A stretch of 37,618 nucleotides of DNA from a bacterium (GTDB lineage: Bacteria; 4484-113; JAGGVC01): NCBI GenBank assembly GCA_039961635.1, contig JABRWB010000022.1, forward strand, positions 1 to 37,618, read 5' to 3'. The translations under genes and the position numbers were made by a program. Shown in pieces: positions 1 to 15,370 of the stretch (position 1 is its first letter; the number at the start of each line of letters is the position of its first letter). The notes under the pieces are model-generated. The model searched no databases, was not told where the DNA came from, and was given only the letters and a program-made list of their open reading frames with translations.

Positions 1-184
1 TTTTGGTGTAACCTCCCCCGGTTTTCGCCGTTTTCGAGGTTACGGAAGCCGGCTGGAAGACGAAAACCGTCCGCTCCGCACGCTCCGGCGGCTTGCCGAA
101 CCGGACGATGCCGCGCTCCGCGTCGCGGTGGATGGGATAAAGCGCAATCGGGATCAAGGATGTGAAAGCAAGAAGGCATGTTAA
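1..184. other. Left-edge stretch, possible truncated gene, strand unresolved
   Basis: No gene is secure here. A plus-strand frame is open from base 2 to a stop at 182-184 and would be the last 60 residues of a gene entering from the left, overlapping the 3' end of the cyclase gene convergently by 4 nt. The opposite strand is also open from about 157 to the edge, with GC-rich third positions, and could be the start of a further minus-strand gene from a TTG codon. I recognise neither product. An 8-bp inverted repeat sits at 8-43. Confidence 0.25.
8..43. repeat. Inverted repeat, 8-bp arms, 20-nt spacer
   Basis: GTAACCTC at 8-15 is perfectly complementary to GAGGTTAC at 36-43. The spacer holds two direct TTTTCG copies. 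The total span of 36 bp is in the size range of a CRISPR repeat, but only one copy exists in the window and it may be coding, so I label it only as an inverted repeat. Confidence 0.35.
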
Positions 185-1236
185 GCATAAAAATCCTCGG
201 CATGATCAAATTCACTGTCAAAGGAGTTGATTGCTGCACTTTTTTGATGATTGTTCATTTTTGATTTTACAAATTCCTTCAGCTCCCGCGCTTCTATGTA
301 AGATCTATCCAGTTCCAAAGCCGATTCAAAATCCTCAATTGCCCGGCAAAAATACTCATTTCGCTTCTCGTCATTTTCCTCCAAACGATCCCCTATTTCA
401 TATTTCGCGCGGCCACGATAATATAAGGAAGCCGTTCTATACGTAGGGTCAACAATTAATCGGTCAAATAATTCAATTGCTTTACAATATTTGCATAAAT
501 CATAATTAGCACGCGCCAAGTTAAAGAGCGCGGACGCCAATGATGGTTTAATCCGGAGGGCTTTTTTGTATGCGTGAATTTCCTTTTCATGCTGTCCCCT
601 TCGGGCATATGCCAAACCCAACTCATACCATAGCGATGCTTCCTTTTCACCCCCTCCAACCAACCTGAATACTTTTCTTTTATTCTTTCGATCGCCCTTT
701 AATTTGTAATTGCTTGTCGGCATTAGTCGAAAATAGTCGGAGCCTAAAGCGCTCACAAACTCATCCGTAACAACAACATCCGGCCCATTAACCTTGGCTA
801 GTATCCGACTGGCCATAATAATGTCACGTGAAACGTGATCCTGACGATCTCCAGTATAATACTGAATGGGAAATGCAGTTCCCCAATGCAGCACGGCTCT
901 GAATTCCAAATCCTTAGGATATCTAATTTCTTTGTACTTATTTTGGATTGATGACAGCAAATCAGGCCATTTTTGTCTAAAGCTGAGGCAAAACTCCAGT
1001 GCGTATTCGGGTTGACTGAAACCAATTAGCGCCCCATCGCCAGTAAAATTAAACGATTGGTTTCCGCGTGTTTCATTTATCATATCTATCATCAAATGCT
1101 TCAGCATAAACAACAGACACTGAAGCACTTTGTCCTCGCACTCTTTCGTTTTCTCCGCGTGGTCAACAAGGTCGATAAACATTATCGCCACTTCATAAGA
1201 TTCAGGCATATTTTCGCATAAATTAGGCGATTTCAA
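181..1236 (-). CDS. Class III nucleotide cyclase-like domain fused to TPR repeats, last gene of the type III-A operon
   Basis: A 351-residue protein with no signal peptide or membrane segment, so cytoplasmic. Residues about 14-192 match a class III adenylate/guanylate cyclase fold: a first metal-Asp motif FIDLVD (D22), a hairpin FTGDG (D67), LHWG at 116-119, and a helix with ASRI (R144). Residues about 201-315 form three TPR units, suggesting a protein-protein interface. The usual transition-state Asn aligns with I140, and the usual purine-selecting Lys three residues before GD aligns with N63, so substrate and activity are uncertain. The gene begins 4 nt after the CARF stop, probably at TTG 1236 behind a GAGG ten bases upstream; ATG 1209 is the alternative but lacks a ribosome site. 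By eye it is much AT-richer than its neighbours (21 G/C in 661-720), which hints at later acquisition. That it makes a nucleotide signal is inference. Confidence 0.8.
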   Translation of the reverse strand: MKSPNLCENMPESYEVAIMFIDLVDHAEKTKECEDKVLQCLLFMLKHLMIDMINETRGNQSFNFTGDGALIGFSQPEYALEFCLSFRQKWPDLLSSIQNKYKEIRYPKDLEFRAVLHWGTAFPIQYYTGDRQDHVSRDIIMASRILAKVNGPDVVVTDEFVSALGSDYFRLMPTSNYKLKGDRKNKRKVFRLVGGGEKEASLWYELGLAYARRGQHEKEIHAYKKALRIKPSLASALFNLARANYDLCKYCKAIELFDRLIVDPTYRTASLYYRGRAKYEIGDRLEENDEKRNEYFCRAIEDFESALELDRSYIEARELKEFVKSKMNNHQKSAAINSFDSEFDHAEDFYA

Positions 1237-1240
1237 GACG

Positions 1241-2371
1241 CTACAACCTCATAAGGCCAATTAATTTTTCCTTGACCAAATGCATCGCGGCGCTCTGCTC
1301 CCGCTTGGTGGCGGCGGTCGTGACAAATTCAAACGGATAAGTCGCCTGCTCCGTGGAAATATCCACCTTAATCAGCTTGACCGTAGCACCGGGCTTTACT
1401 TTCAGCCGGGGGAGCGACGGGCCGCTCCATGCGAATGAATTCCTGCGTTCGATGAAATTCAAATCGTCGCAGGTTTTGTCCAGCCAGGCCATGACATTCT
1501 TGTCGTAATTTGGAGTGTCGTGGATGCCGTCCACCCAGCGGCCTTTGCGCGGCTTGGGAGCGCAAATTGCGCCTTCGCGCTTCACGATTTCCTTGAACTT
1601 TTCATGAAACAATTGACCGACCGGATTCAAATAAATCACTTTTTCGCTCTCTACGTATTCGAACAGCGCGCCGATTGCCGTCGAAACAAAGGACTCCGGA
1701 TTCTTTATTCCAAGCTCCTTCGGATCCAGCAAGTCGTGGTCCGCGAGCGCATCGAAAATTTCCCAATTGTCCAGCCAATCCTCGATGCTGTAGGAAACGG
1801 GCATCGGAGGCATTCTGACCGCGGTCTTGAAATCCTCGAACTGATACCACACATCGCAGCCCATAACCTGTCCGATGAGACCCGCAAAGCTGATCTGTGC
1901 CTTGTATCCGCCCGTGGCGTTTATCGCCACGATACCGTTTTCGCGCTCGCGGATGGCGCGTATTCGTTCCACCATTTTGACGACCAGGTTTTTTAAACCG
2001 TAAGGCGAAAAGCGGTTGTAGATTGGTTTCAGGTCTTCAATTAGCGTAATCAACACTTTCTTTAGCTTGCATGAGTTCCGTTTGCCATCCAACAGCCTGG
2101 GAAGAAGCTCCTTGTATAATTCCCCCATATACCTGCCGTCGTCGGTATCCGAAACGAAAAAGTCAATTTGCTCTATTTTGCCGCCGACCTGCGGAAGAAC
2201 GCACAAGATGGAATTCAGTTCCGCGGAATCCCTTTTAAGCTCCTCATCGGTGCGTTCCGATTCTTTAACCGCAATGTGCGGCGCATCGGGAAGCGGATCG
2301 TATGACGCGCGAAGTCGGTTGAGATAGCTTGTTCCCACCGTGCAAATAAGGTGAGTAACCGCATTGCCCAT
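1241..2371 (-). CDS. CARF-domain CRISPR effector (APE2256/Csx1-like N-terminus)
   Basis: A 376-residue protein. The N-terminal ~195 residues show CARF hallmarks of the APE2256-type family: CTVGTSYL at 10-17, the ligand-loop motif NATGGYKAQ at 151-159, then YQFEDF and MPPMPV. Such domains bind cyclic oligoadenylate made by Cas10. A linker like a winged helix follows (LNPVGQLF, 248-255). The C-terminal ~100 residues (about 275-372) carry no convincing HEPN motif; the only R-X5-H (R278/H284) lies in a loop-like context. This tail resembles, from memory, the tail of long APE2256-family proteins, some of which (Cami1) contain a RelE-like mRNA interferase, but that match is tentative. The ATG at 2371 follows the csm5 stop by 3 nt, with GGAG eight bases upstream. 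The operon position fits a cOA-activated effector, or possibly a ring nuclease. Confidence 0.85.
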   Translation of the reverse strand: MGNAVTHLICTVGTSYLNRLRASYDPLPDAPHIAVKESERTDEELKRDSAELNSILCVLPQVGGKIEQIDFFVSDTDDGRYMGELYKELLPRLLDGKRNSCKLKKVLITLIEDLKPIYNRFSPYGLKNLVVKMVERIRAIRERENGIVAINATGGYKAQISFAGLIGQVMGCDVWYQFEDFKTAVRMPPMPVSYSIEDWLDNWEIFDALADHDLLDPKELGIKNPESFVSTAIGALFEYVESEKVIYLNPVGQLFHEKFKEIVKREGAICAPKPRKGRWVDGIHDTPNYDKNVMAWLDKTCDDLNFIERRNSFAWSGPSLPRLKVKPGATVKLIKVDISTEQATYPFEFVTTAATKREQSAAMHLVKEKLIGLMRL

Positions 2372-2374
2372 TTT

Positions 2375-3904
2375 CTATGCTCCAAAGTTTCTTACTTCCA
2401 CCAGCTTCACCCACCCCATCGGCCGCCATCCTTCCGGCGTGTGGACGAGCCTGAACGAAAGCGGGAAGGGATTGCCCGGGCCGTAGCTTCCGTCTTTCAG
2501 TCTTGATTTGTAAAACCGGTTGCCGATTTTGTTCGCGTTCTCGATAATTTTCTTCTCGTCGTCGTACATCGCCGGGATGCCCGTCATTCCGCTCCAGCCC
2601 GAGCCGAATCCGAGCTGCAGATAACCGCCGGGAGATTCGAGCACGGTGGATTTCAACCATTCCGCGGCCTGCCGGAGCGCCCTTCGGCCGTCTTCGTCCT
2701 GCGACTTTTCCGCCCGCCGGTCGAGTCCCGCGGCCTGGTAACCCGCCACCGCTTCGTTGAAGGATTTGAGCATCCCGCGCAAGGCATGCCAGCCGTTTTT
2801 TCCTTCTTCCTGCTCAAGCTGCCAGACCTGATCCCGATTGAACGACGTTTTTAGTTTGCCATGCGCCTTCGCTTTTTTGAGCGATGCATCGACGCGGATC
2901 GAAGCCGCGAATTTCGCTCCGGGAAGAAGCGCCTCCACTTTTATGGGGGCGCCGGGCTTGCCTTTGCTGACGACGCTTATCCTGTAAAGCCCCAAAGCCA
3001 GCGGAGAAAGAGCGGCGTCGCAAACCTGAAACAGCCGCCCCAAATCGCCGGTCAAGCCGCCGCCGCGATCGCGCTGATCGTTCTTGTCCGGTGGGCGCCG
3101 CATGTTTTCGATTCGTTTGTCACCCGCAAGCTTGTCGCGGTTCGCCTGCAGCACCGTCCGCAGGCTTCCTTTTAGCGAGCTTCCGGGGATGTACGGATTG
3201 CCGAATCCGTCCCGGATGAACTGGTGCAGCTCGTTCAGGTCGGCGAAGTTGCCGCAATCTTCCTCCGCCGTTGCGCCTTTTGGGGCGGCGCGGCCGGTAG
3301 GACTTTTATGCTTTGCGGATTTAAGGCCGCGCCAGTAGTCTATAAATCCCTGCTCCCTGTCCCAGGATTCGGGCAGGTTCGGGCACTGCCTGACCTTGTC
3401 CCGGTCTCTTAAAAGCTTCATGAACTTGAAATCATCTTCACCGCACGATGCCCAATGCTGCGGAAACTTTTGGTCGAATCCGATCGCTTTCGCCGCTTCC
3501 ATGTGGGTTTCCGCCGCAATGAGCAGCTCTTCAACGGTAGAGGCGGGCGTCGGCTTCGCAGGTTCGAATTTCCCCGACGGCTCGCCGCCTCCATCGTCCG
3601 GGGGTCTGCCGTTCCCCGACGCCGGCACCAGCTCCGGCGCGACGCCCCAGTCCGACCAGCAGGGGCTGCCCGGAATGCCGTCCTTGTCCCATTTTATTCC
3701 CTGTTTCGGCGTTATGCCCCCCTGCGGGAACAACGCCGCCAAGTCCGGATAAAACATCCTCCCCCCGTCGAACCTGAAATCGTACGCCTGGTAGGAAAGC
3801 TTCTCCCCGCTGCCGATGTGGAGCGGGGTCGCCACCTCGAACGTCCAGATTTCCGGAAGTCCGAGATTGTCCACGCGCGGATCGAAAAGCGCATTAGTGC
3901 TCAT
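2375..3904 (-). CDS. csm5: Csm5, type III-A RAMP protein
   Basis: A 509-residue Cas7-like RAMP protein that caps the Csm3 filament at the crRNA 3' end in type III-A complexes. Visible family marks are TPLHIGSGE at 26-34, NPYIPGSSLKG at 236-246 (the glycine-rich loop also seen in Csm3), and LGFGSGW at 431-437, typical of Csm5. It is somewhat longer than many Csm5 proteins because of a Pro/Gly-rich stretch at about 92-125. I place the start at ATG 3904, which overlaps the csm4 stop as ATGA and has GGAGG seven bases upstream. A longer frame to 4021 would run inside csm4. Translation is probably coupled to csm4. No catalytic role is expected. Confidence 0.92.
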   Translation of the reverse strand: MSTNALFDPRVDNLGLPEIWTFEVATPLHIGSGEKLSYQAYDFRFDGGRMFYPDLAALFPQGGITPKQGIKWDKDGIPGSPCWSDWGVAPELVPASGNGRPPDDGGGEPSGKFEPAKPTPASTVEELLIAAETHMEAAKAIGFDQKFPQHWASCGEDDFKFMKLLRDRDKVRQCPNLPESWDREQGFIDYWRGLKSAKHKSPTGRAAPKGATAEEDCGNFADLNELHQFIRDGFGNPYIPGSSLKGSLRTVLQANRDKLAGDKRIENMRRPPDKNDQRDRGGGLTGDLGRLFQVCDAALSPLALGLYRISVVSKGKPGAPIKVEALLPGAKFAASIRVDASLKKAKAHGKLKTSFNRDQVWQLEQEEGKNGWHALRGMLKSFNEAVAGYQAAGLDRRAEKSQDEDGRRALRQAAEWLKSTVLESPGGYLQLGFGSGWSGMTGIPAMYDDEKKIIENANKIGNRFYKSRLKDGSYGPGNPFPLSFRLVHTPEGWRPMGWVKLVEVRNFGA

Positions 3905-5082
3905 TTTGCACCTCCCGCGGAGCCGTTTCCGTCCGGCAGCTTGACGGGCAATGCGATCGTGCGCCCGGAGCGCCAGATGCGCTTTTGCCAAGGTTCGAGC
4001 GGCGGCTCCGGCGTGTAGCATTCCGGGAATACGTTGACCGGATGGCCGAGCGCGCCCGGAGCAAGCCCCGCAAGCAGCGCGCCCTTGTCCACCATTCTGA
4101 CGCGTTTGGATACGACCATCTGCGATGTTCCCGGCACCGTGTTTCGCCCCTGGCGGGAAATCGCCTGCCAGCGCGAAGCGGAGTGGGAAAGCGCGGATTG
4201 CATTTCGCCGGAGGGCGAGTGGCCCGGATACATCAGGCCCAGCGTGAGCGCCGCGCCGGCAGGAGCAATCTCCGGAAGATTGAAATTAGACTTGTCTTTC
4301 GACGGCTCGAACTGGTATTGCCCGTAGCCATATGTCCTATCTCCGCCGATGCCCGCCAATCCAAGCAACTTGACCGCCTTTATAAACTCGGCCTCATGCC
4401 CGCCCGCATCCACGACAACCGCGGCTGCCGCGCCTTTGGCGAACCGGAAAGAAGCGACGCGGTATGGATCTGAGGCTTTGGCGACCACTTTGCCAATTTC
4501 ATCCGCGGGCTTGCGATCATTTCTCATCGCCTCACGTTCCCGCTCAGCACGCGCCTCAAGCATATCCGGTTGCAGCAGCACGCGCTCCTGGACGCTTCGT
4601 TTCACCCATTTGCCGTCATACTCCGAAAGCGTAAGCGGCGGCTCCTTCGGCTTTCCGTTCCGCTTTTCGAATTCAGAAAAATATTCGCCGAGAACCAATT
4701 CCGCGACGTCAACGCCCGAAGCCCATTGCCTCCATACATCCTCGCGCAGCCACCTGACCTTGTTGACCACTTTGATCAAGTGCAGCTGTTCTGCTGGATT
4801 TATTTCAATGGACTTCGGCGGAACCGGCAGATACAGATGTTCCTTTCCGTCCTCATCGAGCAGAACGGGAAGCAGGCCGGAGCAGGCCACGGCGCCGCCG
4901 TCCGGCGCGAACCAGTCATCGGGAAACTTGCCGGTGGTGTTTGCCCATGCGACCGCCGCGGCGGGAACTATCGTGTCGTTTTCCGGCAGCCGCGCGCCGT
5001 GCTCCTGCGTCACGAACCGCGCTCCGATGTGGTGCACGGCGGAGCGCCCGAAGTGCAAAATCAATTTAAGCAAAGGCGGCAT
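3901..5082 (-). CDS. csm4: Csm4, type III-A Cas5-like RAMP protein
   Basis: A 393-residue protein. Csm4 sits beside Cas10 at the foot of the complex and holds the 5' handle of the crRNA. The N-terminus has the RAMP beta strand LLKLILHFG, and the C-terminal half holds the G-rich loop GIGGDRTYGYG at 244-254, characteristic of Csm4. A charged insert at about 135-200 may replace the hairpin seen in other Csm4 proteins. The start at ATG 5082 is preceded by AGGAGG with an 8-nt spacer; TTG 5088 two codons upstream is less likely. The gap to csm3 is 38 nt, the longest inside the operon, and shows no promoter or terminator. The stop overlaps the csm5 start. Confidence 0.92.
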   Translation of the reverse strand: MPPLLKLILHFGRSAVHHIGARFVTQEHGARLPENDTIVPAAAVAWANTTGKFPDDWFAPDGGAVACSGLLPVLLDEDGKEHLYLPVPPKSIEINPAEQLHLIKVVNKVRWLREDVWRQWASGVDVAELVLGEYFSEFEKRNGKPKEPPLTLSEYDGKWVKRSVQERVLLQPDMLEARAEREREAMRNDRKPADEIGKVVAKASDPYRVASFRFAKGAAAAVVVDAGGHEAEFIKAVKLLGLAGIGGDRTYGYGQYQFEPSKDKSNFNLPEIAPAGAALTLGLMYPGHSPSGEMQSALSHSASRWQAISRQGRNTVPGTSQMVVSKRVRMVDKGALLAGLAPGALGHPVNVFPECYTPEPPLEPWQKRIWRSGRTIALPVKLPDGNGSAGGAK

Positions 5083-5120
5083 GCCCAACTCCTCCTAATC
5101 CCAATCGAGAACCGGCAGGG

Positions 5121-5909
5121 CTATGCCGCTCCCGGCCCGATTTCCTTACGCGAATCCCCGTGCAGCAAGGATTTGAACGGAATCACGTCGCCCCAGTCTT
5201 CCAATTTCCTTACCAAAATCGCTCCGTCAACGAACTTGATTTCCACGATATCCTTGGGCAAAACCATGACCTGTCCATAGCCGCGTGTTCCGCTTCCGCC
5301 CAAATATTCCGTTTCAAGCAGCGTCAGGCATTTGCTCAGAGCTTCGCAAAGCTCTTTGCCGTCGCCGTCCGTGTCCCAGATGGAAAGTACCATCTCGCAG
5401 GAAAACTCTGCCCCTCTAGGCACGCGTTCAAAAGTTCTGAGACCTCCGACTCGACTCACTCCACCAGTAAGTCGATCAATTGAGTTCTCGGTTTTTACTT
5501 CGCCAAATTGCGAATCCAAAAAAAACTCTGCACTCCTGAATTTCTCCCGTGATTCTATTGTAAGAAACGAATCTCGCACGGTAAGGCGCGATGGCCTTGC
5601 TCCAGCTTCCGGTTTATCGGCCGAAACTCCAAATAACATAGCCGAAACAGAATCTAGTTTCTGCGATGGGAGAGCGTTACCATTTGCATCAAGCTCGTAA
5701 TCTCCGCGCACACGCTCCAAACAACTTCGAAGCTTGCCTTTTAAGGACGAGCCGGGTATGTATGGCTCATTAGTTAATGGATCCCGAATCACCGGCGCGT
5801 CAATTGCTCCAATTGCAATGCCTGGATCCGACGCGCCGATGCGCATTCCGGTCAAAAGCTCGAGATTGAATCTGGCAACGATTTTCTTCGTTAATCTCGG
5901 TACGCCCAT
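5121..5909 (-). CDS. csm3: Csm3, type III-A backbone RNase subunit
   Basis: A 262-residue Cas7-family subunit. Copies of Csm3 polymerise along the crRNA and cut target RNA at 6-nt intervals. Diagnostic motifs are RIGASD at 23-28, AIGAIDAPVIRDP at 32-44, where D37 aligns with the catalytic Asp (D33 in Streptococcus thermophilus Csm3), PYIPGSSLKGKLR at 49-61, ENSIDRLTGG at 141-150, and LGGSGTRGYG at 203-212. All key residues look intact, so target RNA cleavage is predicted to work. ATG 5909 has AAGGAG seven bases upstream and lies 10 nt after the csm2 stop. The 5' half is noticeably AT-richer than the 3' end. Confidence 0.96.
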   Translation of the reverse strand: MGVPRLTKKIVARFNLELLTGMRIGASDPGIAIGAIDAPVIRDPLTNEPYIPGSSLKGKLRSCLERVRGDYELDANGNALPSQKLDSVSAMLFGVSADKPEAGARPSRLTVRDSFLTIESREKFRSAEFFLDSQFGEVKTENSIDRLTGGVSRVGGLRTFERVPRGAEFSCEMVLSIWDTDGDGKELCEALSKCLTLLETEYLGGSGTRGYGQVMVLPKDIVEIKFVDGAILVRKLEDWGDVIPFKSLLHGDSRKEIGPGAA

Positions 5910-5919
5910 TTCTTACTCC

Positions 5920-6300
5920 TTATTTCCTCGGCATGTAGGCCACAATTGTTTCGAAGGCTTCGACGAACCGGTTGAATTTGCCATCGTCCGTTCCCACTTC
6001 TTTCAACGCGGAAAGTATCTCTTTCTTAAACGAAATTACCGCATCGCGACTATCCTTGTTCTGTTCTATGTGACGCTCCAGTCGATAATGAATTCGGGGC
6101 TCCAGCAGCCTAAACTTGGTCCAGTCCCGCTTAACCTGGCCCATTGCATCAAGTCGCCGCACATGCCCGAAAATACCGCGAAGCTGCGTCATGGTGAATT
6201 TTCGCGACGCAAGCGAATTTGCAATGGCTTCGGCTTCTTGAATCATCTTTTCCGCCGAATCCGGGGTTGGCGAATTTCTAACATAATCAGCCAGCGACAT
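5920..6300 (-). CDS. csm2: Csm2, type III-A small subunit
   Basis: A 126-residue, mostly helical, basic protein of the size usual for Csm2, the small subunit that lines the crRNA-target duplex opposite Csm3. Residues 39-76 contain the recognisable core: LRGIFGHVRRLD followed by FRLLEPRIHYRLER. The start ATG 6300 lies inside the 3' end of cas10, overlapping by 14 nt, and its Shine-Dalgarno AAGGAGG is encoded in the last cas10 codons, so translation is coupled. Csm2, rather than Cmr5, together with the csm order marks the system as III-A. Confidence 0.92.
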   Translation of the reverse strand: MSLADYVRNSPTPDSAEKMIQEAEAIANSLASRKFTMTQLRGIFGHVRRLDAMGQVKRDWTKFRLLEPRIHYRLERHIEQNKDSRDAVISFKKEILSALKEVGTDDGKFNRFVEAFETIVAYMPRK

Positions 6301-9028
6301 CTTGAACCTCCTTTTCCTTCTTCACTTTATTTCTGCAAAAGTAATCCGCCCAGCGCACAATTGTGGCCAGGTATTCGATCGGCTGCCTGCCGTCCGGTCC
6401 GCCTGAAACCGTTTCGCGGCCGCTTGCACCGGAAGGCAAAAACACAGCCGAAAATTCGCGGGCCAGCGCGCCATCCGAACCGGAATCGCCTTCTTTTCCC
6501 TTCATCCTGGACAAAGAATATTCAAGCAGCGGCTTCCACCGGCCCGGATTGAAAAACTCAGGCCGCTCGGCCTGTTCGAATTCCCGCAGGTATTTTCTTC
6601 CGCGCAGATATGCAACGGCGACCTTGCCCAGCATGCGGATAAGCCCTTGATCTTTAATTTTTGCGGATACTTCCACAAGCTCTGCACGCTTTTTCCTGAT
6701 CCAATTCCACTCGTTCCAGGTTGCGGTGAAGTCCAGGAAATCCATCCTGTCCTTGCGGACCGGTCGATCCTTCTTAAGCGACCGTTCGAATTCCCGGCCA
6801 AGGTTTTTCGCCGCGCTTTCGGCGTCTCCTGCCCATTCCGATGCAACCGAGATCGGGAATTTTCCGCCCGCAAGCGCGATACCCGCCGAAAGCCCGACAT
6901 CCGCGTTCCGGCCCGTCCAACTTCGGAAGCAATCGCGAATCCGCATCGCGAGTTCCGGCATGACAAACCACGGCCCCACCAGGAACGCGTCGTCTCCGCC
7001 GGAGTAAATCGTGAACACAAGGTCGCCTGCGCGAATTTCTTCCTCGCCGTACTTAAACCGAAATTCATCGAGTATTATCGGGAGCAGGCCGCTGAAAAAC
7101 CTGACCAAAGAAGCCGAAAGCGACATCATCCGGCCCATTGAATACGCTTGGCGCTCCCCGGTTTCCTCGATAAGCTTGGACTTTTCGAATTCGTCCAGTC
7201 CTTTTGCCATAAGCCAACCGAGGTTGTCTACGTCCATTCGCAGCACGCCGATTCTGCCGAAGCCGGTTGTCAAGCAAGCCGCGGCGTCAAGTTCGTCAAA
7301 GGTGATCGGCCGTCGCTCATTATCGCTTTCGTCTTCGTCCAAATTTCTTTTTTCCCAAAGATCTTTCCAGAATTGAAGGCCGCCGCCCGCCTTTCCTTTC
7401 CAGGTAGGCGAATTCGCGCCCGCGTAGTATCTCAATCCGTCGCAGCCGCCGCGAATCGAGTTCAATCCGAACGAAAGGATCGCAGCGTTATCGCGGCCGC
7501 TTCCCGCAAATATCCACTCATCCGCGCCGGGCACCTTGATGGCATGTCCCGATTGCTTTCCGTAAACGACAATTCTGTCGGCGGAAGCCAGTCTTCGTCC
7601 GAGCTCTTCGAGGTCGCGATCGAATTCGGTTTCTTCCTTTCGATCCATCTCCCAAAACCTCGGATCGACAGCCTCGAAAAATCCGGCCTCCGCAGGCGGC
7701 CGCGACGATGCGCGCGGCAGTTCCTCGTCAAGCAATTTTTGAAGCTTCTTTCCGAATCCTTTGCTCATCAAGTCGGCTTGGGAAATCGGCAGACTCGCAA
7801 GCCTCAACGAAAGCGGGCAATCCGCTCCGGCGATTTCAGCTAATTCGTTGTTGGCGTTTCTTAGGAATTCTCCGATTTTTTCGACGCTGTCCTCAATATT
7901 CGGCAGCAATAAAAGGAATTTGCCGCCCGTCGCATATATCCGGCACGCTTTCGGCATGCCAAATTCCGCAGCCAGATTCGCGGCGAGCCTGTCCGCCCAT
8001 ACATCCACGAGAAAGCTTCTCGCCTTGAGTTGCCGCGATGCGCCCTTTGCCTCGATATCGGTGATGAACTTCTGTATCCCGGCCAAATCTCCGAGCGCTA
8101 TTCTGAAAAGCGCGCCGCCGCAACGTTCTTTTTCGATTTCACCGCACGGCCCGCCATTCCATTCGCGATTTTCCTTAAAACACTTTTCCGCTTCCTTTGC
8201 CAGATGCCCAAGCGCCGCGTCGCTTCCGAACAGCTCATCGAAATCACCGTCGCCGTCTTTGAAAAGCGCGCCAATCGCCGCCGCGATTATCGCCACCGCT
8301 TTCGAGTGATCAGCAAGGCTGATGTCGGAAAACGCGTTCGTGGCCGAGGGAACCGTCCATCCGTACCATTCCAGAAGCGCCGACGCTTTTTCAAGCGCGG
8401 CTTCCCTGTCATCGTTCCACTTGACGTCCTTCGACTCTTTTAACAAGCCCTCCCAAAGTTTTTGATATCCGGCCTGATTCACGTTGGTTTTGGACGGCGA
8501 TGTAAGCGCATCCAATTTGACGCCCTCGAATCCCGCGCACAGCGGCAGCACGGCTTCGTCGCCCGCTTTGATTGCGTTGTCCTTCAGCCTCAAAAGCGAC
8601 AGTACCGACACGAGCGCGCGCTCGCGCATTTGCTTGATATAGTCCGGCTGGGAATCGTCACAGTCTTTAATGCGATCCGCGGCGCTCGCAAGCCTGTCCG
8701 CGCGCGCGAGAATCCATTGCTCGAATGTCGAGGGTATGTGATGACCGAGCGCGATCCCCTCCACCCCTTTCCAACTCGCGCTTTTTCCAAGCCCGGATTC
8801 CAAAAGAAACTGGCCCGTATAAAGAACGTGGAAACGCGAAAAGCGGTTGTCGGAACTTGGTAGATACAGGGTTTGATATCCCGATGAAAGCACTTCGGGT
8901 GAAAGCCCTTTTTTATGCTCGCAAGCTCTTTGTCCGATTTTTCCCAAATCGTGAACGAGTCCGGCCATGCACAGCTTATGGCTGCGCGTCGGCAAATTCC
9001 GTCCAGCCGAGTCCACTTCCCCTTGCAT
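6287..9028 (-). CDS. cas10: Cas10 (Csm1), HD nuclease and cyclic oligoadenylate synthase
   Basis: A 913-residue large subunit of the Csm complex. When the complex binds target RNA, the HD domain cuts single-stranded DNA and the Palm domain turns ATP into cyclic oligoadenylates. The HD motif is VHDLGKIG (H26, D27), backed by GHH at 95-97 and the helix ADRLA at 110-114. The first Palm strand shows ATGGKFLLLLPN. The second Palm domain has SGGDDAFL, with GGDD at 677-680, so both activities look intact. I start at ATG 9028, which has AGGAG seven bases upstream; a TTG 39 nt further up would add 13 residues without a ribosome site. It is the first gene of the operon, about 70 nt downstream of a good promoter. 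It overlaps csm2 by 14 nt. Confidence 0.95.
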   Translation of the reverse strand: MQGEVDSAGRNLPTRSHKLCMAGLVHDLGKIGQRACEHKKGLSPEVLSSGYQTLYLPSSDNRFSRFHVLYTGQFLLESGLGKSASWKGVEGIALGHHIPSTFEQWILARADRLASAADRIKDCDDSQPDYIKQMRERALVSVLSLLRLKDNAIKAGDEAVLPLCAGFEGVKLDALTSPSKTNVNQAGYQKLWEGLLKESKDVKWNDDREAALEKASALLEWYGWTVPSATNAFSDISLADHSKAVAIIAAAIGALFKDGDGDFDELFGSDAALGHLAKEAEKCFKENREWNGGPCGEIEKERCGGALFRIALGDLAGIQKFITDIEAKGASRQLKARSFLVDVWADRLAANLAAEFGMPKACRIYATGGKFLLLLPNIEDSVEKIGEFLRNANNELAEIAGADCPLSLRLASLPISQADLMSKGFGKKLQKLLDEELPRASSRPPAEAGFFEAVDPRFWEMDRKEETEFDRDLEELGRRLASADRIVVYGKQSGHAIKVPGADEWIFAGSGRDNAAILSFGLNSIRGGCDGLRYYAGANSPTWKGKAGGGLQFWKDLWEKRNLDEDESDNERRPITFDELDAAACLTTGFGRIGVLRMDVDNLGWLMAKGLDEFEKSKLIEETGERQAYSMGRMMSLSASLVRFFSGLLPIILDEFRFKYGEEEIRAGDLVFTIYSGGDDAFLVGPWFVMPELAMRIRDCFRSWTGRNADVGLSAGIALAGGKFPISVASEWAGDAESAAKNLGREFERSLKKDRPVRKDRMDFLDFTATWNEWNWIRKKRAELVEVSAKIKDQGLIRMLGKVAVAYLRGRKYLREFEQAERPEFFNPGRWKPLLEYSLSRMKGKEGDSGSDGALAREFSAVFLPSGASGRETVSGGPDGRQPIEYLATIVRWADYFCRNKVKKEKEVQDVAG

Positions 9029-9103
9029 GTGCCTTCTCCTCAAATGAACCAAAGGCCATTTTCCCAATTACTCGGGTGAAGCCCATTGGACAGCCCGGAT
9101 GAC

Positions 9104-9132
9104 AAACTAGCGCTTTTTTACAACCTTGTCAA
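9104..9132 (-). promoter_or_regulatory. Sigma-70-type promoter of the csm operon
   Basis: Read on the minus strand, TTGACA (9127-9132) is followed after exactly 17 nt by TAGTTT (9104-9109). Transcription should start near 9097, giving a leader of about 70 nt before the cas10 ATG. The -35 box is perfect, unlike most housekeeping promoters in this window. Confidence 0.65.
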
Positions 9133-9292
9133 CACATTCAAAAACAAGTTCAATGCATTGCGCTTTCAAGCGGCTTGCGACATTCGCTTTTCTTTGAAAG
9201 TGAAATATTGAACGTACGGCTGACGCAACAATTCAAGTTTCGGCAGGTCGCGGCGCGATTTTCTCCAAAGAGCTTGAATATTTGGAATTAAA

Positions 9293-9310
9293 GCCCCTCG
9301 GTTGAGGCGC
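9293..9310 (-). terminator. Possible weak terminator after the last ASST-like gene
   Basis: GCGCCTC/GAGGGGC arms (one mismatch, 4-nt loop) are followed on the minus strand by CTTTAATT. The T-tract is poor. It lies between the stop of the ASST-like gene and the csm promoter, where a terminator would be expected. A second stem, GCCGCC/GGCGGC at 9351-9371, has no T-tract. Confidence 0.3.
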
Positions 9311-9380
9311 GTTAATTTTCGTCGGAAATATCGCAATCCAAAGTAACGCAGCCGCCGATTTCCTTGGCGGCCGAATGCGG

Positions 9381-12182
9381 TCAGCTTCCCAGGGCGGAAA
9401 GCCCCGGATAGTCCGGGGTGTACCTTATCGCCTTGAAAAGATCGAACGGCTCGCCCGCCTGCCACCTGCAATCGAACTCCCACGTTGTTTCGCCCATCGG
9501 GTTGACTTCAAAAATCCGGTTCTGAAGCGCGCTGCATATCAGCGTGTTCCCTCCGGGAAGCCTTTGCGCACTGCCCATGAATTGCGAATGAAAATCCCCG
9601 AGCGGATTGGATAAATACTGCCAAGCCGGTTCCGCCGGCCCGTAAACTCCGTCCGTCAAATAGTAGCTTCCGTCGGGATTCAGCGGCGTTGCGAGCTGGA
9701 CGACCGACGAAAACGACTCCCCGCCCAGCGTTCCCGCGTTGTTGTTGAACACGAGCAAATTTCCTGCCCCGTCGAGACCGTCTTCGATCCAGTACGGATT
9801 GTGCTGACCGAACAGCCTTTGACTGCCCGGCCCGCCCGCGCGGTAGTTCTGCGGATTTCCCCACCGGTAAAGTATGTCTCCGCCCCGGCCGTATCTTCCG
9901 CCCGTGTGCCCGGCGGCCTCTTCCATCGTGGTTGAGTGGTCTATCACCCAGATTTCGCTCAAGTCGCGAGGGCTTACCGCGATTTGGTCAAGCTCCGCGT
10001 TGTACGACACCGTGTTTATGTGCGTCCAGTCGAGCGTGCAATCCAGCCTTAAGTTGAAATCGATCAACTCGGGATGCTCCGCGGGATTTCCATAGTTGGC
10101 CTTCGAAGGATCGTAGTCCTGAACGAGATGATCCCATGCTTTCCATTCCCAGACGACCTCCCCGCCGTCGGGAAGTACGGGTTCTATTTCGACTATCGAA
10201 TCCACCCACATTCCGTACTGGGATATACCGGCGGGATTCCTTCCCGCGTCAACCGCATCCTGCCGGGAGTACGCGTTCCAGACTATCAAAAGCACGTTCC
10301 CGTTGGGCAGCCTTTCGAATTGATGATGGCAGCATCGCTCCCAGTCGTAAAGCTCGTACGACCAAACCAGGTTTCCGTCCCAGTCGTACTCCTCGATTCT
10401 TCCGGCCTTGCCCATCCCGTTGAACCAAAAACCGCCCACGTATCCAAGCCGAAGCAAATGGCCGGTTTCCTCAAGCTCCGCTGAAAGCCCCGGATAGTAA
10501 TTGCTGTCCCATGTGTGGACGGGATTTCCATCCATATCGATCAAATACGTTCTCTTTTCGCCGAGCGGCGCGACCAAAGTGTATCCGTCCGCGGATTCGG
10601 GAATTACCGACACGACGAAATTGTGCAACGACGAGCCGCAATGATTTTCGACCAAAAGGCTCGCAGCGTAATCGCCGGGCGCGTCCGTCAGCCGGACGGA
10701 CGGCTGTGCGCTGTCAGCCGAGTCGGGGATTCCCGCTTCCCCGAAATTCCAGGTATAGTCGAACGGCGCATCGCCCTCCACTTCCGCGGCGAACACGAGG
10801 ATTTGACCGGCCATTCCCAAAGAGGGAGAAACCGACAGGATTTCAGGAACCGCACCGACGCCCACCGAAAACTCGAACTCGGTGCTTCCACAATCGTTAA
10901 AAACCGTCACACTCGCGGGATAATCGCCGGGGACGGCCGTAAGGGTCACCAGCGGACGCTCTTCGTCGGAGGTATCGGGCGTTGCAGCGTCTCCGAAATT
11001 CCAGAAATATGTGAACGGCCCGGCGCCTTCCACCTCCGCGGTGAATCGAACATCCTCGCCGGGCGCGCCTCCACGCGGATTTACGCGCGACAGAGCCGGC
11101 GCGGCTTTTACTTCAAGAAACCATGCGAACGTGTCGCTAGAGTAGTTGTTCGAAACCGTCACGCTCGCCTCGTACACGCCGGGCGCGGTCGAAAGAACCA
11201 CAACCGGCGCCGCATCCGTCGAAGTGGCCGGTTGCGCTCCCCCCCCGAAATCCCATTCGTACGTGAACGGTCCCGCGCCGGCGGTCAGCTCCGCTTCGAA
11301 CCGCACCTCCGTTCCCGGCAGGCCGCAAAGCGGAGACACGCCGGCGATCGAGGGGCCGTCCCTTCCCCCCAGATGGAAAGGCGCGCTCGATGTAAATTCG
11401 CATGCCCCGTCGGCGTCCCTCAACCCGAAGTAATACTCTCCCGAAGGAAGACCATGGCCGCCCGGGGAGATCTCGACACCTGTCCAGCCGTAATGCGAAC
11501 TGGATTGGTCGAGATTCATGACGAGCGGGAGCTCGGACTCATCCGCGGGATCAAACGACGCGGTTCCGAAGTAAAGAGCCGCCGTTTCCCATTTTTCTTC
11601 CTGCCAGGAATAAAACGGGGGAACATCGTAAATCCCGAATTGAATTTTGTACCTGGCGCCGAAATTGAGTGCGATGGTGGTCACGTCTCCCACGCCGATT
11701 TCGCCCGAGCCGTCGCCGTCAATGAATTTTTCCACGATGTCGCCTTCGCCGTCGGTGACCGACCGCATAAATCGAAGAGCGACAGGAGTTATGTCGGAAA
11801 CGGAAACCTCCCCGTCAAGGTTGTAGTCGCCGGGCAGAAAATAGCGCCACGAAACGGAATAAGTTCCATCCCCGTTGGAAACCGATTCAAGCATCAGAGG
11901 CGGGGACTGCGGCGGCAGCTGCGAAGAAGTTCTGCCGTTCGCGATTTCGCCCAATTCCGATAAGAGCCTTTTGGAAAGCAGGGAAAAAACCTTCGGATCG
12001 GCGCCGTCTGGAACAGCCATCCGGGACAGCTCCGTTTGCGCAACCCGGAAATGATTTCCCGCGTCCGCCGCGGCGCTTCGGCCCGGGCTCAATCCATCCG
12101 CCTTGCAACCGGCGAGCAACACCGCCAACGCCAACAGCGAAAGCGCCCCGTTGCACCGAATTCGAATCGCCCCAACCGCCAT
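9381..12182 (-). CDS. Lipoprotein with dockerin-like pair, three PKD-like repeats and ASST-type domain (paralogue A)
   Basis: A 933-residue exported lipoprotein. The lipobox VLLAGC puts the lipidated Cys at residue 26 when ATG 12182 is used; ATG 12239 would add 19 residues. Neither start has a clear ribosome site. Residues about 118-176 hold two calcium-loop repeats of dockerin type (DYNLDGEVSVSD and DGDGSGEIGVGD). Three PKD-like units follow at about 279-360, 362-443 and 444-527, each with a Y-x-W-[DN]-F-G core. Residues 531-933 match an arylsulfotransferase (ASST)-like propeller: LIDMDGNPVHTW, HH at 619-620 followed by LPNGN, DWTHIN, DHSTT and QHNPYW. Known ASSTs move sulfate between phenols through a catalytic His; whether this one does is unknown. 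A G8 tract lies in PKD1. It is the most diverged of the four copies. Confidence 0.85.
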   Translation of the reverse strand: MAVGAIRIRCNGALSLLALAVLLAGCKADGLSPGRSAAADAGNHFRVAQTELSRMAVPDGADPKVFSLLSKRLLSELGEIANGRTSSQLPPQSPPLMLESVSNGDGTYSVSWRYFLPGDYNLDGEVSVSDITPVALRFMRSVTDGEGDIVEKFIDGDGSGEIGVGDVTTIALNFGARYKIQFGIYDVPPFYSWQEEKWETAALYFGTASFDPADESELPLVMNLDQSSSHYGWTGVEISPGGHGLPSGEYYFGLRDADGACEFTSSAPFHLGGRDGPSIAGVSPLCGLPGTEVRFEAELTAGAGPFTYEWDFGGGAQPATSTDAAPVVVLSTAPGVYEASVTVSNNYSSDTFAWFLEVKAAPALSRVNPRGGAPGEDVRFTAEVEGAGPFTYFWNFGDAATPDTSDEERPLVTLTAVPGDYPASVTVFNDCGSTEFEFSVGVGAVPEILSVSPSLGMAGQILVFAAEVEGDAPFDYTWNFGEAGIPDSADSAQPSVRLTDAPGDYAASLLVENHCGSSLHNFVVSVIPESADGYTLVAPLGEKRTYLIDMDGNPVHTWDSNYYPGLSAELEETGHLLRLGYVGGFWFNGMGKAGRIEEYDWDGNLVWSYELYDWERCCHHQFERLPNGNVLLIVWNAYSRQDAVDAGRNPAGISQYGMWVDSIVEIEPVLPDGGEVVWEWKAWDHLVQDYDPSKANYGNPAEHPELIDFNLRLDCTLDWTHINTVSYNAELDQIAVSPRDLSEIWVIDHSTTMEEAAGHTGGRYGRGGDILYRWGNPQNYRAGGPGSQRLFGQHNPYWIEDGLDGAGNLLVFNNNAGTLGGESFSSVVQLATPLNPDGSYYLTDGVYGPAEPAWQYLSNPLGDFHSQFMGSAQRLPGGNTLICSALQNRIFEVNPMGETTWEFDCRWQAGEPFDLFKAIRYTPDYPGLSALGS

Positions 12183-12277
12183 CAAATTCGAACCATCTAT
12201 CGCGCGGCTGCAGGAACGCCGCACGCGGACTTTCTCCATCCGGACGAATACCCCGCCGCGCCCGGATGCATGGGATG

Positions 12278-12309
12278 TTTATACCTCAAAACCCCAAAAA
12301 AATATTCAA
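12278..12309 (-). promoter_or_regulatory. Possible promoter of paralogue A
   Basis: On the minus strand TATAAA (12278-12283, preceded by GG) is the -10 candidate. TTGAAT (12304-12309) lies 20 nt upstream, which is too far for an ideal -35. Transcription would start near 12272, upstream of both candidate ATGs. Confidence 0.35.
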
Positions 12310-12409
12310 GTTCCCAATGAGCCCCGCATGGACTCGGCCGCCCCGCGCGCGGCCCGCCCGAAATCCGCCCAAGCCGCGGCACCGCCGCACACCCGGCCTT
12401 AGCCGTCGG

Positions 12410-15220
12410 TCACTGCTCCAGCCGGGCAAGGCCCGGAAAGTCCGGCGTGTACCTGAACGCCTTGAAGATGAATCCCGGGCTGCCCGACGGGAACTGGTTG
12501 TCGTATTCCCAGACGATTTCGCCGTCCATCGTAGCTTCGAACAGCCACCTCTGCAGTGAACTGGTCACAAGAGTGTTGCCTCCCGGCAGTCTCTGCGCGC
12601 TGGACATCAGCTGGCTGTAAAAAAGATTGGGCGGATCGGAGATGAACTCCCAGGTTGGCTCGCTCGGTCCGTAGAATCCGTCGGTCATGTAGTAACTGCC
12701 GTCCGGATTAAGCGGCGTCGTTATTTGTACAACGGAAGAGTAAGGTTGGCCGTCGAACGAACCCGGCTGATTGTTCAGAATCAGAATGTCGCCTTCGCCT
12801 TCCAGGCCGTCGGGAATCCAGTAGGGATCGTGCTGATAAAAAAGCTTGTGATCTTCTGCGGCGCCCTTTTTGTAGGATGCCGGGTTTCCCCAGCGGTAAA
12901 TCAGGTCGCCGCCCCTGCCGTACCGCCCGCCGGTGTGGCCGGCCGCTTCTTCGGTAGTGGTCGAATGGTCTATGACCCAGATTTCGCTGATCGAATGCGG
13001 GCTGATCACGATTTGGTCCAAGTCCTCGTTGTACGCCACCGCATTCACGTGAGTCCAGTCAAGCGGCGAGCCGGGGCTTAGATTTATGTCAATCAGCTCC
13101 GGATGTTCGGCGGGATCTCCGAAGTTGTTCTTGGTGTCGTCGTAGTCCTGGATCAGATGATCCCACACGTACCATTCCCAGACGATCTCGCCGCCGGAGG
13201 TTCCGACGGGCTCGATCTCGGCGATCGAGTCCGCCCAGAATCCGCGCATGCTGGTATATGAAGGATTTCTGCCATGTTCTATCGCCTCGTCGCGCGTGTA
13301 CAGGTTCCATACGATCAACAGAATGTTGCCGTTGGGCATCAGCTCGAAGTCGTGATGGCAGCACTGGGTCGAGCTGCTAAGCTCGTAGTACCATACCAGA
13401 TTTCCGTCCCAGTCGCGCTTTTCGATCCTGCCGGCGCTCCCCCCCCCGTTGAAAGTTGGATTGTTTATGTTGCATAGCCGGTACATGTATCCGTCCGCGG
13501 ACAGCTCCACCGCGGCTCCCGGATAGTAGTCCGCCGTCCAATCGTGGACAACGTTCCCGTCCATGTCTATAAGGTACGTTTTATTGTCGTTCATCGGCGA
13601 AAACAGCGTGAATCCTTCGCTTCCGAGCGGAATCACTTTCAGCGTGAAATCGTAACTGAAGCTGCCGATGTTGTTGGAAACGGTCAGGTTCGCAGCGTAA
13701 TCGCCGGGCAAATCGCCGAAAGTCACTTGCGGGTTTTCATCGGCGCTGGAATTTGGAACCGCCCCCCCCCCGAAATTCCAGGAGAACGCAAAAGGAGGGT
13801 CGCCGGAAACGTCCGCCGAAAGCGCGCCGGGTAGCCCCGACATCCCGATTAGAGGGCTTACGCCTGTGACCACCGGAGGATCGCCCACGCCCAGAATCCA
13901 TTCATATGTGTCGCTTCCGTACACGTTGGTCACCGTCAGGCTCGCAAAGTAGCTTCCTTTTGCGTCGGCAAGGCTGACCGTGGGGCTTTGAGCATCCGAA
14001 AGAGCCGGGGTCGCCCCGCCTCCGAAATCCCACGAGTACGTGAACGGCTGCTCTCCCGCGACTTCCGCCGAAAACGTCACCGGCTGGCCCGGCGTTCCGC
14101 CTATCGGAGAGACAGAATTGATAACCGGAACTTCGCCGACCGTAAGTTCCCATTCGAATGTGTCGCTCCCGTAGGCGTTGGAAATCGTCACGCTAGCTTG
14201 ATATGCGCCCTTGGCCGCCGCGAGCGTCACTATCGGGCTTTGCTCTTCTGAATGATCGGGATTTGCGCCGCCGCCGAAATTCCAACTGTAACTGAGCGGC
14301 TCGGCGCCCGAAAGCAGATCGGCGTAGAATTGAACCTGCAAGCCCGGCGAGCCGCTGGTCGGGCTCACGGCCGCGATTTCCGGATCGTCCCTCCCGGTCA
14401 GGCTGAACTTGTCGAAAGACACGAATTTGCACGGGTCGCTTAAATCCCGGACTCCGAAATAGTAATCGCCGGATGTCAGCGCCGCTGCGTCGATATCGAA
14501 ATCAAGGCTCAACCAGCCGTATTTCGGATTGGCGGGATCCAGGTTGACGGCGGGCTTCACAGTCCCGGGAGAATCCGATATCAACGCGGCGGTAACGATT
14601 GCCGCGGCTTTTTCCTGCCAGTTCGAAAGCGTCCACGCCGAGCTGGGCAATTCCTCGAAAATTGCGGCAACAACGTGATATGAAGCAAGGTAATTAAGGG
14701 CGATCGGGGTGATGTCGCTCACTCCGATTTCGCCGGACAGATCTCCGTCAATGAACCGCTGGACGTTGTCCGCATTGCCGTCGGAAACTGACTGAAGGTA
14801 GTTGAGCGCAATTGGAGTGATGTCGGCAACCGACACTTCCCCGTCAAGGTTGTAGTCGCCTTGGTGGTAGTATTTCCACGCGAAGTTTCCAATTCCGTCT
14901 CCCAAATCGGTGAAGACCAGGAAAAGGGGCGGGCTTGCGGGGGCGGCCTGCGACGGCAGACGGCCCTCTTCCCTCGCTCGTATTTCCTCCACCAGCTTGT
15001 CCGCCAGCAGCTTGAAGACCTTCGGGTCGACGCCGTCCGGCGGCTCGTAAGCCGAAAGGTCGTGAAGCACGGCGTCGGAAAGCGAAACCTCGGCCTGCGG
15101 CGTCAGCCCCCCGCCTCCGCTCGCGCCGCCGCGGAAATTGCGGGAGCATGCGGAGAGCGAAACGGCGGCGAGAAGAACAATCAAAACAGACAAAATTATT
15201 GAAGAATTAAAGCGGATCAT
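12410..15220 (-). CDS. Lipoprotein with dockerin-like pair, three PKD-like repeats and ASST-type domain (paralogue B)
   Basis: A 936-residue lipoprotein. ATG 15220 has GGAG seven bases upstream. The signal ends in lipobox SLSAC (C25). The dockerin-like pair spans 121-177, with loops beginning D122 and D158. A small beta domain at about 180-275 ends in YYFGVRD. The PKD-like units are at about 280-362, 366-447 and 448-530. The ASST-like domain is 535-936, with H622-H623 before LMPNGN, DWTHVN (H724), IDHSTT (H752), GHTGGRYGRGGD and QHDPYW (H797). These conserved His residues probably line the active site by analogy with ASST families. G10 and G9 tracts lie in PKD3 and early in the ASST domain. 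It has its own promoter, so it can be expressed apart from copies C and D. Confidence 0.87.
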   Translation of the reverse strand: MIRFNSSIILSVLIVLLAAVSLSACSRNFRGGASGGGGLTPQAEVSLSDAVLHDLSAYEPPDGVDPKVFKLLADKLVEEIRAREEGRLPSQAAPASPPLFLVFTDLGDGIGNFAWKYYHQGDYNLDGEVSVADITPIALNYLQSVSDGNADNVQRFIDGDLSGEIGVSDITPIALNYLASYHVVAAIFEELPSSAWTLSNWQEKAAAIVTAALISDSPGTVKPAVNLDPANPKYGWLSLDFDIDAAALTSGDYYFGVRDLSDPCKFVSFDKFSLTGRDDPEIAAVSPTSGSPGLQVQFYADLLSGAEPLSYSWNFGGGANPDHSEEQSPIVTLAAAKGAYQASVTISNAYGSDTFEWELTVGEVPVINSVSPIGGTPGQPVTFSAEVAGEQPFTYSWDFGGGATPALSDAQSPTVSLADAKGSYFASLTVTNVYGSDTYEWILGVGDPPVVTGVSPLIGMSGLPGALSADVSGDPPFAFSWNFGGGAVPNSSADENPQVTFGDLPGDYAANLTVSNNIGSFSYDFTLKVIPLGSEGFTLFSPMNDNKTYLIDMDGNVVHDWTADYYPGAAVELSADGYMYRLCNINNPTFNGGGSAGRIEKRDWDGNLVWYYELSSSTQCCHHDFELMPNGNILLIVWNLYTRDEAIEHGRNPSYTSMRGFWADSIAEIEPVGTSGGEIVWEWYVWDHLIQDYDDTKNNFGDPAEHPELIDINLSPGSPLDWTHVNAVAYNEDLDQIVISPHSISEIWVIDHSTTTEEAAGHTGGRYGRGGDLIYRWGNPASYKKGAAEDHKLFYQHDPYWIPDGLEGEGDILILNNQPGSFDGQPYSSVVQITTPLNPDGSYYMTDGFYGPSEPTWEFISDPPNLFYSQLMSSAQRLPGGNTLVTSSLQRWLFEATMDGEIVWEYDNQFPSGSPGFIFKAFRYTPDFPGLARLEQ

Positions 15221-15266
15221 GGCACAACTCCAAAAATCAAACGACGATTAAAAATGATGGAATAAT

Positions 15267-15295
15267 ATTGTATCGAAACCGGAATGAAATTTCAA
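15267..15295 (-). promoter_or_regulatory. Sigma-70-type promoter of paralogue B
   Basis: On the minus strand TTGAAA (15290-15295), a 17-nt spacer and TACAAT (15267-15272) form a near-consensus promoter. Transcription should start about 40 nt before the paralogue B ATG at 15220, and the leader carries its GGAG site. Confidence 0.7.
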
Positions 15296-15370
15296 CGCCG
15301 CGCATCCGCACGGAAGCAAGGCCGGATCCGGCCCGTTCCGATGATTCCCCCGAATGTACGACGGTTAATT

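Follow-up and report, generated by a model that had tools for sequence, protein, structure and literature searches.

The window analysed here, the whole 37,618-nucleotide contig C22 of a bacterial genome assembled as 2.78 Mb in 100 contigs, carries a type III-A CRISPR system (Table 1). Its csm module, identified with Pfam, PADLOC and NCBIfam models, encodes the complete effector set (Cas10/Csm1, Csm2, Csm3, Csm4 and Csm5) and is followed on the same strand by a CARF7 protein, in agreement with the type III-A operon assigned by the original prediction. The GGDD motif of Cas10 leads one to expect the synthesis of cyclic oligoadenylate. In all of this the locus resembles other type III-A systems with CARF accessories, namely a complete csm module, a Cas10 with HD and GGDD motifs and a CARF7 effector; it differs from them in an additional gene, which encodes a class III nucleotidyl cyclase-like domain joined to tetratricopeptide (TPR) repeats.

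Table 1. Features of the type III-A locus and the adjoining contig end
Feature	Coordinates	Strand	Basis and remarks
Contig end identical to the first 100 bp of contig C19, same genome	1..100		Repeat or assembly branch
Cyclase-TPR gene	181..1236	-	351 aa; TTG start; stop 181-183; GC 41.2%
TPR region, about residues 199-331	244..642	-	Pfam, PDB sequence search, AF2 helices
Predicted class III nucleotidyl cyclase domain, about residues 11-195	652..1206	-	PF00211, Ma1120 phmmer, alignment, AF2, Foldseek
Gap between CARF stop and cyclase-TPR start	1237..1240		4 nt
CARF7 / APE2256-family protein (TIGR02619)	1241..2371	-	PADLOC CARF7--CARF_DUF2103, E=9.8e-61, near full length
csm5	2375..3904	-	Profile matches
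csm4	3901..5088	-	Profile matches
csm3	5121..5909	-	Profile matches
csm2	5920..6300	-	Profile matches
cas10/csm1	6287..9067	-	TIGR02578, 404 bits; HD at residue 39, GGDD at 690

No CRISPR array was found within the window, and the cas6 genes of this genome lie outside it, on contigs C5 and C59. The Cas6-family ORF of C5 occupies positions 3-977 at the very start of that contig, where a CRISPR locus has perhaps been broken by the assembly. The genome has a second type III system, a III-B system at positions 1-11600 of the stretch 45000-60000 of C59, which comprises Csx1 (CARF-HEPN), Cas6, Cmr1, Cas10/Cmr2, Cmr3, Cmr4 and Cmr6 and is adjoined by a CRISPR array of about 54 repeats; the 15 kb examined around it hold no cyclase. 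Elsewhere in the window, the minus strand between 9381 and 20970 holds a run of consecutive genes for large PKD-arylsulfotransferase-like paralogues that carry a lipoprotein-like signal at the N-terminus; Pfam confirmed the assignment of two.

The cyclase-TPR gene is an intact open reading frame and the last visible gene of the csm-CARF unit, the contig ending 180 bp downstream. Its TTG start is preceded at 10 nt by a GAGG that sits within the 3' end of the CARF gene, and an ATG at codon 10 offers an alternative start. The junction contains no promoter-like site, a consensus scan giving no more matches than shuffled sequences do; the claim that the gene begins 4 nt past the CARF stop with no intervening promoter thus holds. 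Judging by this spacing on a common strand, the cyclase-TPR gene is probably co-transcribed with csm.

Several lines of evidence assign the two domains. The TPR region is recognised by Pfam at residues 207-246 (E=4.6e-10, over the cut-off); models over their cut-offs span residues 200-246, PF13414 scoring 39.5 bits against a cut-off of 26.8, and the full-protein AF2 model has helices at residues 196-331. Only about three to four repeats are seen in this region. The Pfam family Guanylate_cyc (PF00211) matches residues 11-190 with E=4.9e-4 and 20.2 bits in the protein search, against a curated cut-off of 21.9 bits; the genome search gave 21.9 bits and was counted as over. When the isolated cyclase domain is compared with the PDB, phmmer matches Ma1120 at E=7.5e-5, and a profile built from same-phylum cyclases and Ma1120, with the query excluded, recovers the cyclase-TPR protein at E=3e-7. 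An AF2 model of the domain, made from an alignment with 35 cyclases from viral contigs, reached a pLDDT of 74.7 and a pTM of 0.74, and its best Foldseek neighbours are the cyclases CyaB, Ma1120, Rv1900c and Cya2 (E about 1e-10, TM 0.64-0.79; CyaB E=7.6e-11, TM 0.74). Since the model was guided by an alignment to other cyclases (13-19% identity), part of the fold match stems from the input itself, and it serves as support, not as independent proof; single-sequence AF2 of the full protein gave no confident model of the cyclase part. Taken with the sequence matches, the model indicates a divergent domain of the class III nucleotidyl cyclase type at residues 11-195, and the predicted pairing of a nucleotide-cyclase-like domain with TPR repeats is borne out by Pfam, the PDB search and Foldseek.

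Is the domain catalytically competent? Across the 36 aligned cyclases F20, D22, G66, D67, D133, R144, K180 and G181 are invariant, and these include both metal-binding aspartates (D22 and D67), the aspartate of the base site (D133) and the transition-state arginine (R144). Two canonical positions are changed: N63 occupies the base-selecting position, which is Lys (together with Asp/Thr) in adenylyl and Glu in guanylyl cyclases, and the transition-state asparagine position is I140. With the adenine-selecting lysine replaced by asparagine and the asparagine by isoleucine, the substrate cannot be read from the sequence. The same two replacements, and a Pfam score slightly under the cut-off in the protein search, lend some weight to the idea of a pseudo-cyclase, a domain that binds a nucleotide or is structural in a TPR protein acting as scaffold or regulator, with no cyclic nucleotide made. 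Against this stand the intact metal aspartates, D133 and R144, as well as the comparison with Ma1120, which is an active adenylyl cyclase and, in the phmmer alignment, likewise has no asparagine four residues before the arginine. Crystal structures of Ma1120 (PDB 4wp3, 5d0e) with ATP, GTP and pyrophosphate are among the Foldseek matches, and the enzyme shares with the query the fold, the two metal aspartates, the base aspartate and the arginine; it differs in its base lysine, and the matched chain of 210 aa has no counterpart of the C-terminal TPR repeats. A pseudo-cyclase is a reading that we take seriously and nonetheless consider unlikely.

Relatives of the whole protein are few and distant. 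A search of about 1,900 genomes from five other phyla yielded only generic cyclases at 21-26% identity, as did one of 10 genomes of its own phylum apart from the query itself; the 28 genomes that host selected csm loci likewise gave only generic cyclases, and a rare-peptide search found no homologues in phages, viral contigs or genome contigs. Plasmid records gave weak matches, including two R. leguminosarum proteins with a TPR annotation; in the protein of strain WSM1325 of that species, TPR repeats follow a class III cyclase. Such rhizobial plasmid proteins are the closest relatives of the same architecture. Three from Rhizobiaceae plasmids (WP_041935809.1, WP_105009424.1 and an unannotated one of Ensifer adhaerens) have an N-terminal class III cyclase and C-terminal TPR repeats, are colinear with the query over about 240-260 aa and share the motif NFTGDG with asparagine at the lysine position, yet they are only 22% identical to it, have a longer TPR array and keep the transition-state asparagine. 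Since these relatives have the lysine-to-asparagine change and yet retain that asparagine, the change alone looks lineage-typical rather than a sign of decay, which speaks against a pseudo-cyclase. Unlike the query gene, the rhizobial genes are free of neighbouring Csm3, Cas10 or CARF homologues in the 3-4 kb covered on each side. The architecture is thus of an already known kind, and the protein falls within a broader class of cyclase-TPR proteins that is not tied to CRISPR.

A dedicated role in immunity would lead one to expect the gene to recur beside csm or CARF genes in distant genomes, as the original prediction proposed, and this expectation failed. A scan with a Csm3 alignment provided 80 csm3-anchored loci, the best-scoring ones, all in other genomes and together 1.16 Mb long (many of them cut by contig ends), which represent Bacteroidota, Chloroflexota, Nitrospirae, Deltaproteobacteria, archaea and others. 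None of these 80 contains a class III cyclase: with E values of up to 1 allowed, no ORF was matched by the query domain, by Ma1120 or by the cyclase profile. In the positive controls Csm3 matched 83 ORFs in the same set and the cyclase profile matched a PAS-cyclase at E=5e-46. Because only the best-scoring loci were taken and many are cut short, a rare cyclase-csm linkage may still occur. Two relatives of the CARF7 protein, on a Nostoc plasmid and an Allomeiothermus plasmid, both lie in type III loci that have no cyclase-TPR gene. An apparent cyclase-CRISPR link in the nearest relative (contig C80 of genome G008) was discarded, as the cmr system and the PAS-cyclase found there are about 6 kb from each other, on opposite strands and separated by unrelated genes. 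That cmr locus (10496-19189) is preceded by PLD, PRTase-CE and NADAR genes, perhaps as part of a defence island; the PRTase-CE and NADAR genes are on the strand opposite to it.

No paper was found, in an incomplete coverage of the literature, that joins type III CRISPR with a cyclase (adenylate or guanylate) and with TPR or CARF domains, and the main texts of two surveys of type III accessories (PMC11229360, PMC12669027) do not mention a cyclase-TPR protein. The signals of type III CRISPR described in the main text of one of these are cyclic oligoadenylate and SAM-AMP (PMC12669027). A TPR protein tied to a type III-derived CRISPR system is known in TPR-CHAT (Csx29) of Cas7-11 (Craspase), but going by its description it is a protease, not a cyclase.

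These findings bear on the proposal of a dedicated second signal, in which the cyclase would be switched on in response to Cas10 activation or to cyclic oligoadenylate, either by itself or by way of the CARF protein, and its cyclic mononucleotide would recruit further effectors. The immediate succession of the CARF and cyclase-TPR genes, the cyclic oligoadenylate expected of Cas10 and the conserved catalytic aspartates and arginine are what one would predict of such a pathway; the empty csm loci and CARF7 neighbourhoods are not, and neither is the lack of a CARF domain in the cyclase-TPR protein, nor the fact that the ten other window proteins scanned have no domain for binding cyclic nucleotides. 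We consider the proposal improbable. Its fullest form, an active cyclase with altered base choice that is produced together with Csm and controlled by the Csm or CARF machinery by way of its TPR repeats, so as to add a mononucleotide signal to cyclic oligoadenylate, is more doubtful again. The mononucleotide signal of the original prediction cannot be assumed, given the two substituted catalytic positions.

The base composition of the gene points to a separate origin. Its GC content is 0.412 and its GC3 0.409, as against 0.49-0.61 for the csm and CARF genes and 0.57-0.62 for the other, non-CRISPR genes of the window, and the low-GC stretch coincides exactly with the gene, the GC content returning to 0.63-0.64 at positions 1-180. 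The low GC, which had been taken to suggest a separate addition to the operon, is thereby confirmed and confined to this gene, and the composition fits the acquisition of a single gene from elsewhere. As the CARF7 model matches nearly the whole CARF protein (profile coverage 4-352 of 353), the insertion left the CARF gene uncut. Misassembly or contamination is an unlikely source of the low GC, for the gene is flanked by host-like values, and C19, a contig of the same genome, begins with the same sequence as this one. One may also picture a chance passenger, an unrelated gene that landed after the operon and is barely expressed or self-regulated and without function there; foreign composition, a single instance and the nearby contig edge would suit it, while the intact reading frame across two domains and the tight junction with a CARF gene left complete would not, and we regard it as very improbable.

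The identity of the C22 and C19 ends implies that the assembly halted at a repeat or a strain branch, leaving the next gene out of view. Beyond the common 100 bp, C19 runs into a tRNA-Met at 120-192 on the minus strand; this tRNA sequence was considered as an attachment site, but only chance matches of 13-16 nt occur in the window. RNA at the contig end, whether an rRNA operon or some other kind, was likewise discarded, no Rfam model matching at its gathering score. The common end holds GTAACCTC...GAGGTTAC, an 8-bp inverted repeat able to fold as a hairpin.

A contig that ends before the next 3' gene leaves space for a Pycsar-like arrangement, in which the receptor of a cyclic pyrimidine would lie just past the edge. 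Like PycC, the query is a class III-type cyclase in a defence context, and it has a non-canonical base site. The PycC proteins described in PMC11224242, however, have the uracil- or cytosine-site residues Y50/D94/R97 or F100/R142/Q144, and they are presented there as a cyclase core to which only small elements are added at the N- and C-terminus, not as fusions of a cyclase with TPR repeats. In that description Pycsar does not adjoin CRISPR, no CNBD effector was seen in the window proteins scanned, up to the contig end 180 bp downstream of the gene, and no PADLOC model matched the cyclase-TPR protein, in a release whose Pycsar content is unconfirmed. A Pycsar-like system is exceedingly unlikely.

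The reading that we favour, with a confidence about evenly poised, is that of a horizontally acquired gene, probably co-transcribed with csm-CARF, whose product is a homodimeric class III cyclase gated by TPR binding. The gene would have been acquired from elsewhere and placed as the last visible gene of the csm-CARF transcription unit, and would be transcribed along with it. Class III cyclases such as PycC pair head to tail and have their active site where the two subunits meet (PMC11224242), and by analogy the cyclase-TPR protein would most likely be an active homodimer of this kind; as TPR repeats are protein-binding modules, a partner bound by the C-terminal repeats could set its activity. 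The case for this reading is limited by its single genome and by the two changed catalytic positions. What stands of the original prediction is the cyclase and TPR fold, the same-strand position at 4 nt and the separate acquisition; the recurrence and the assumed mononucleotide signal do not.

The role of the gene as a dedicated component of type III immunity is unproven; its position makes a new signalling layer conceivable, against which stand the failed recurrence and the non-canonical active site. Were it to function in immunity, type III CRISPR would gain a mononucleotide signal; the locus is in any event one clear example of a foreign signalling gene taken up into an operon.
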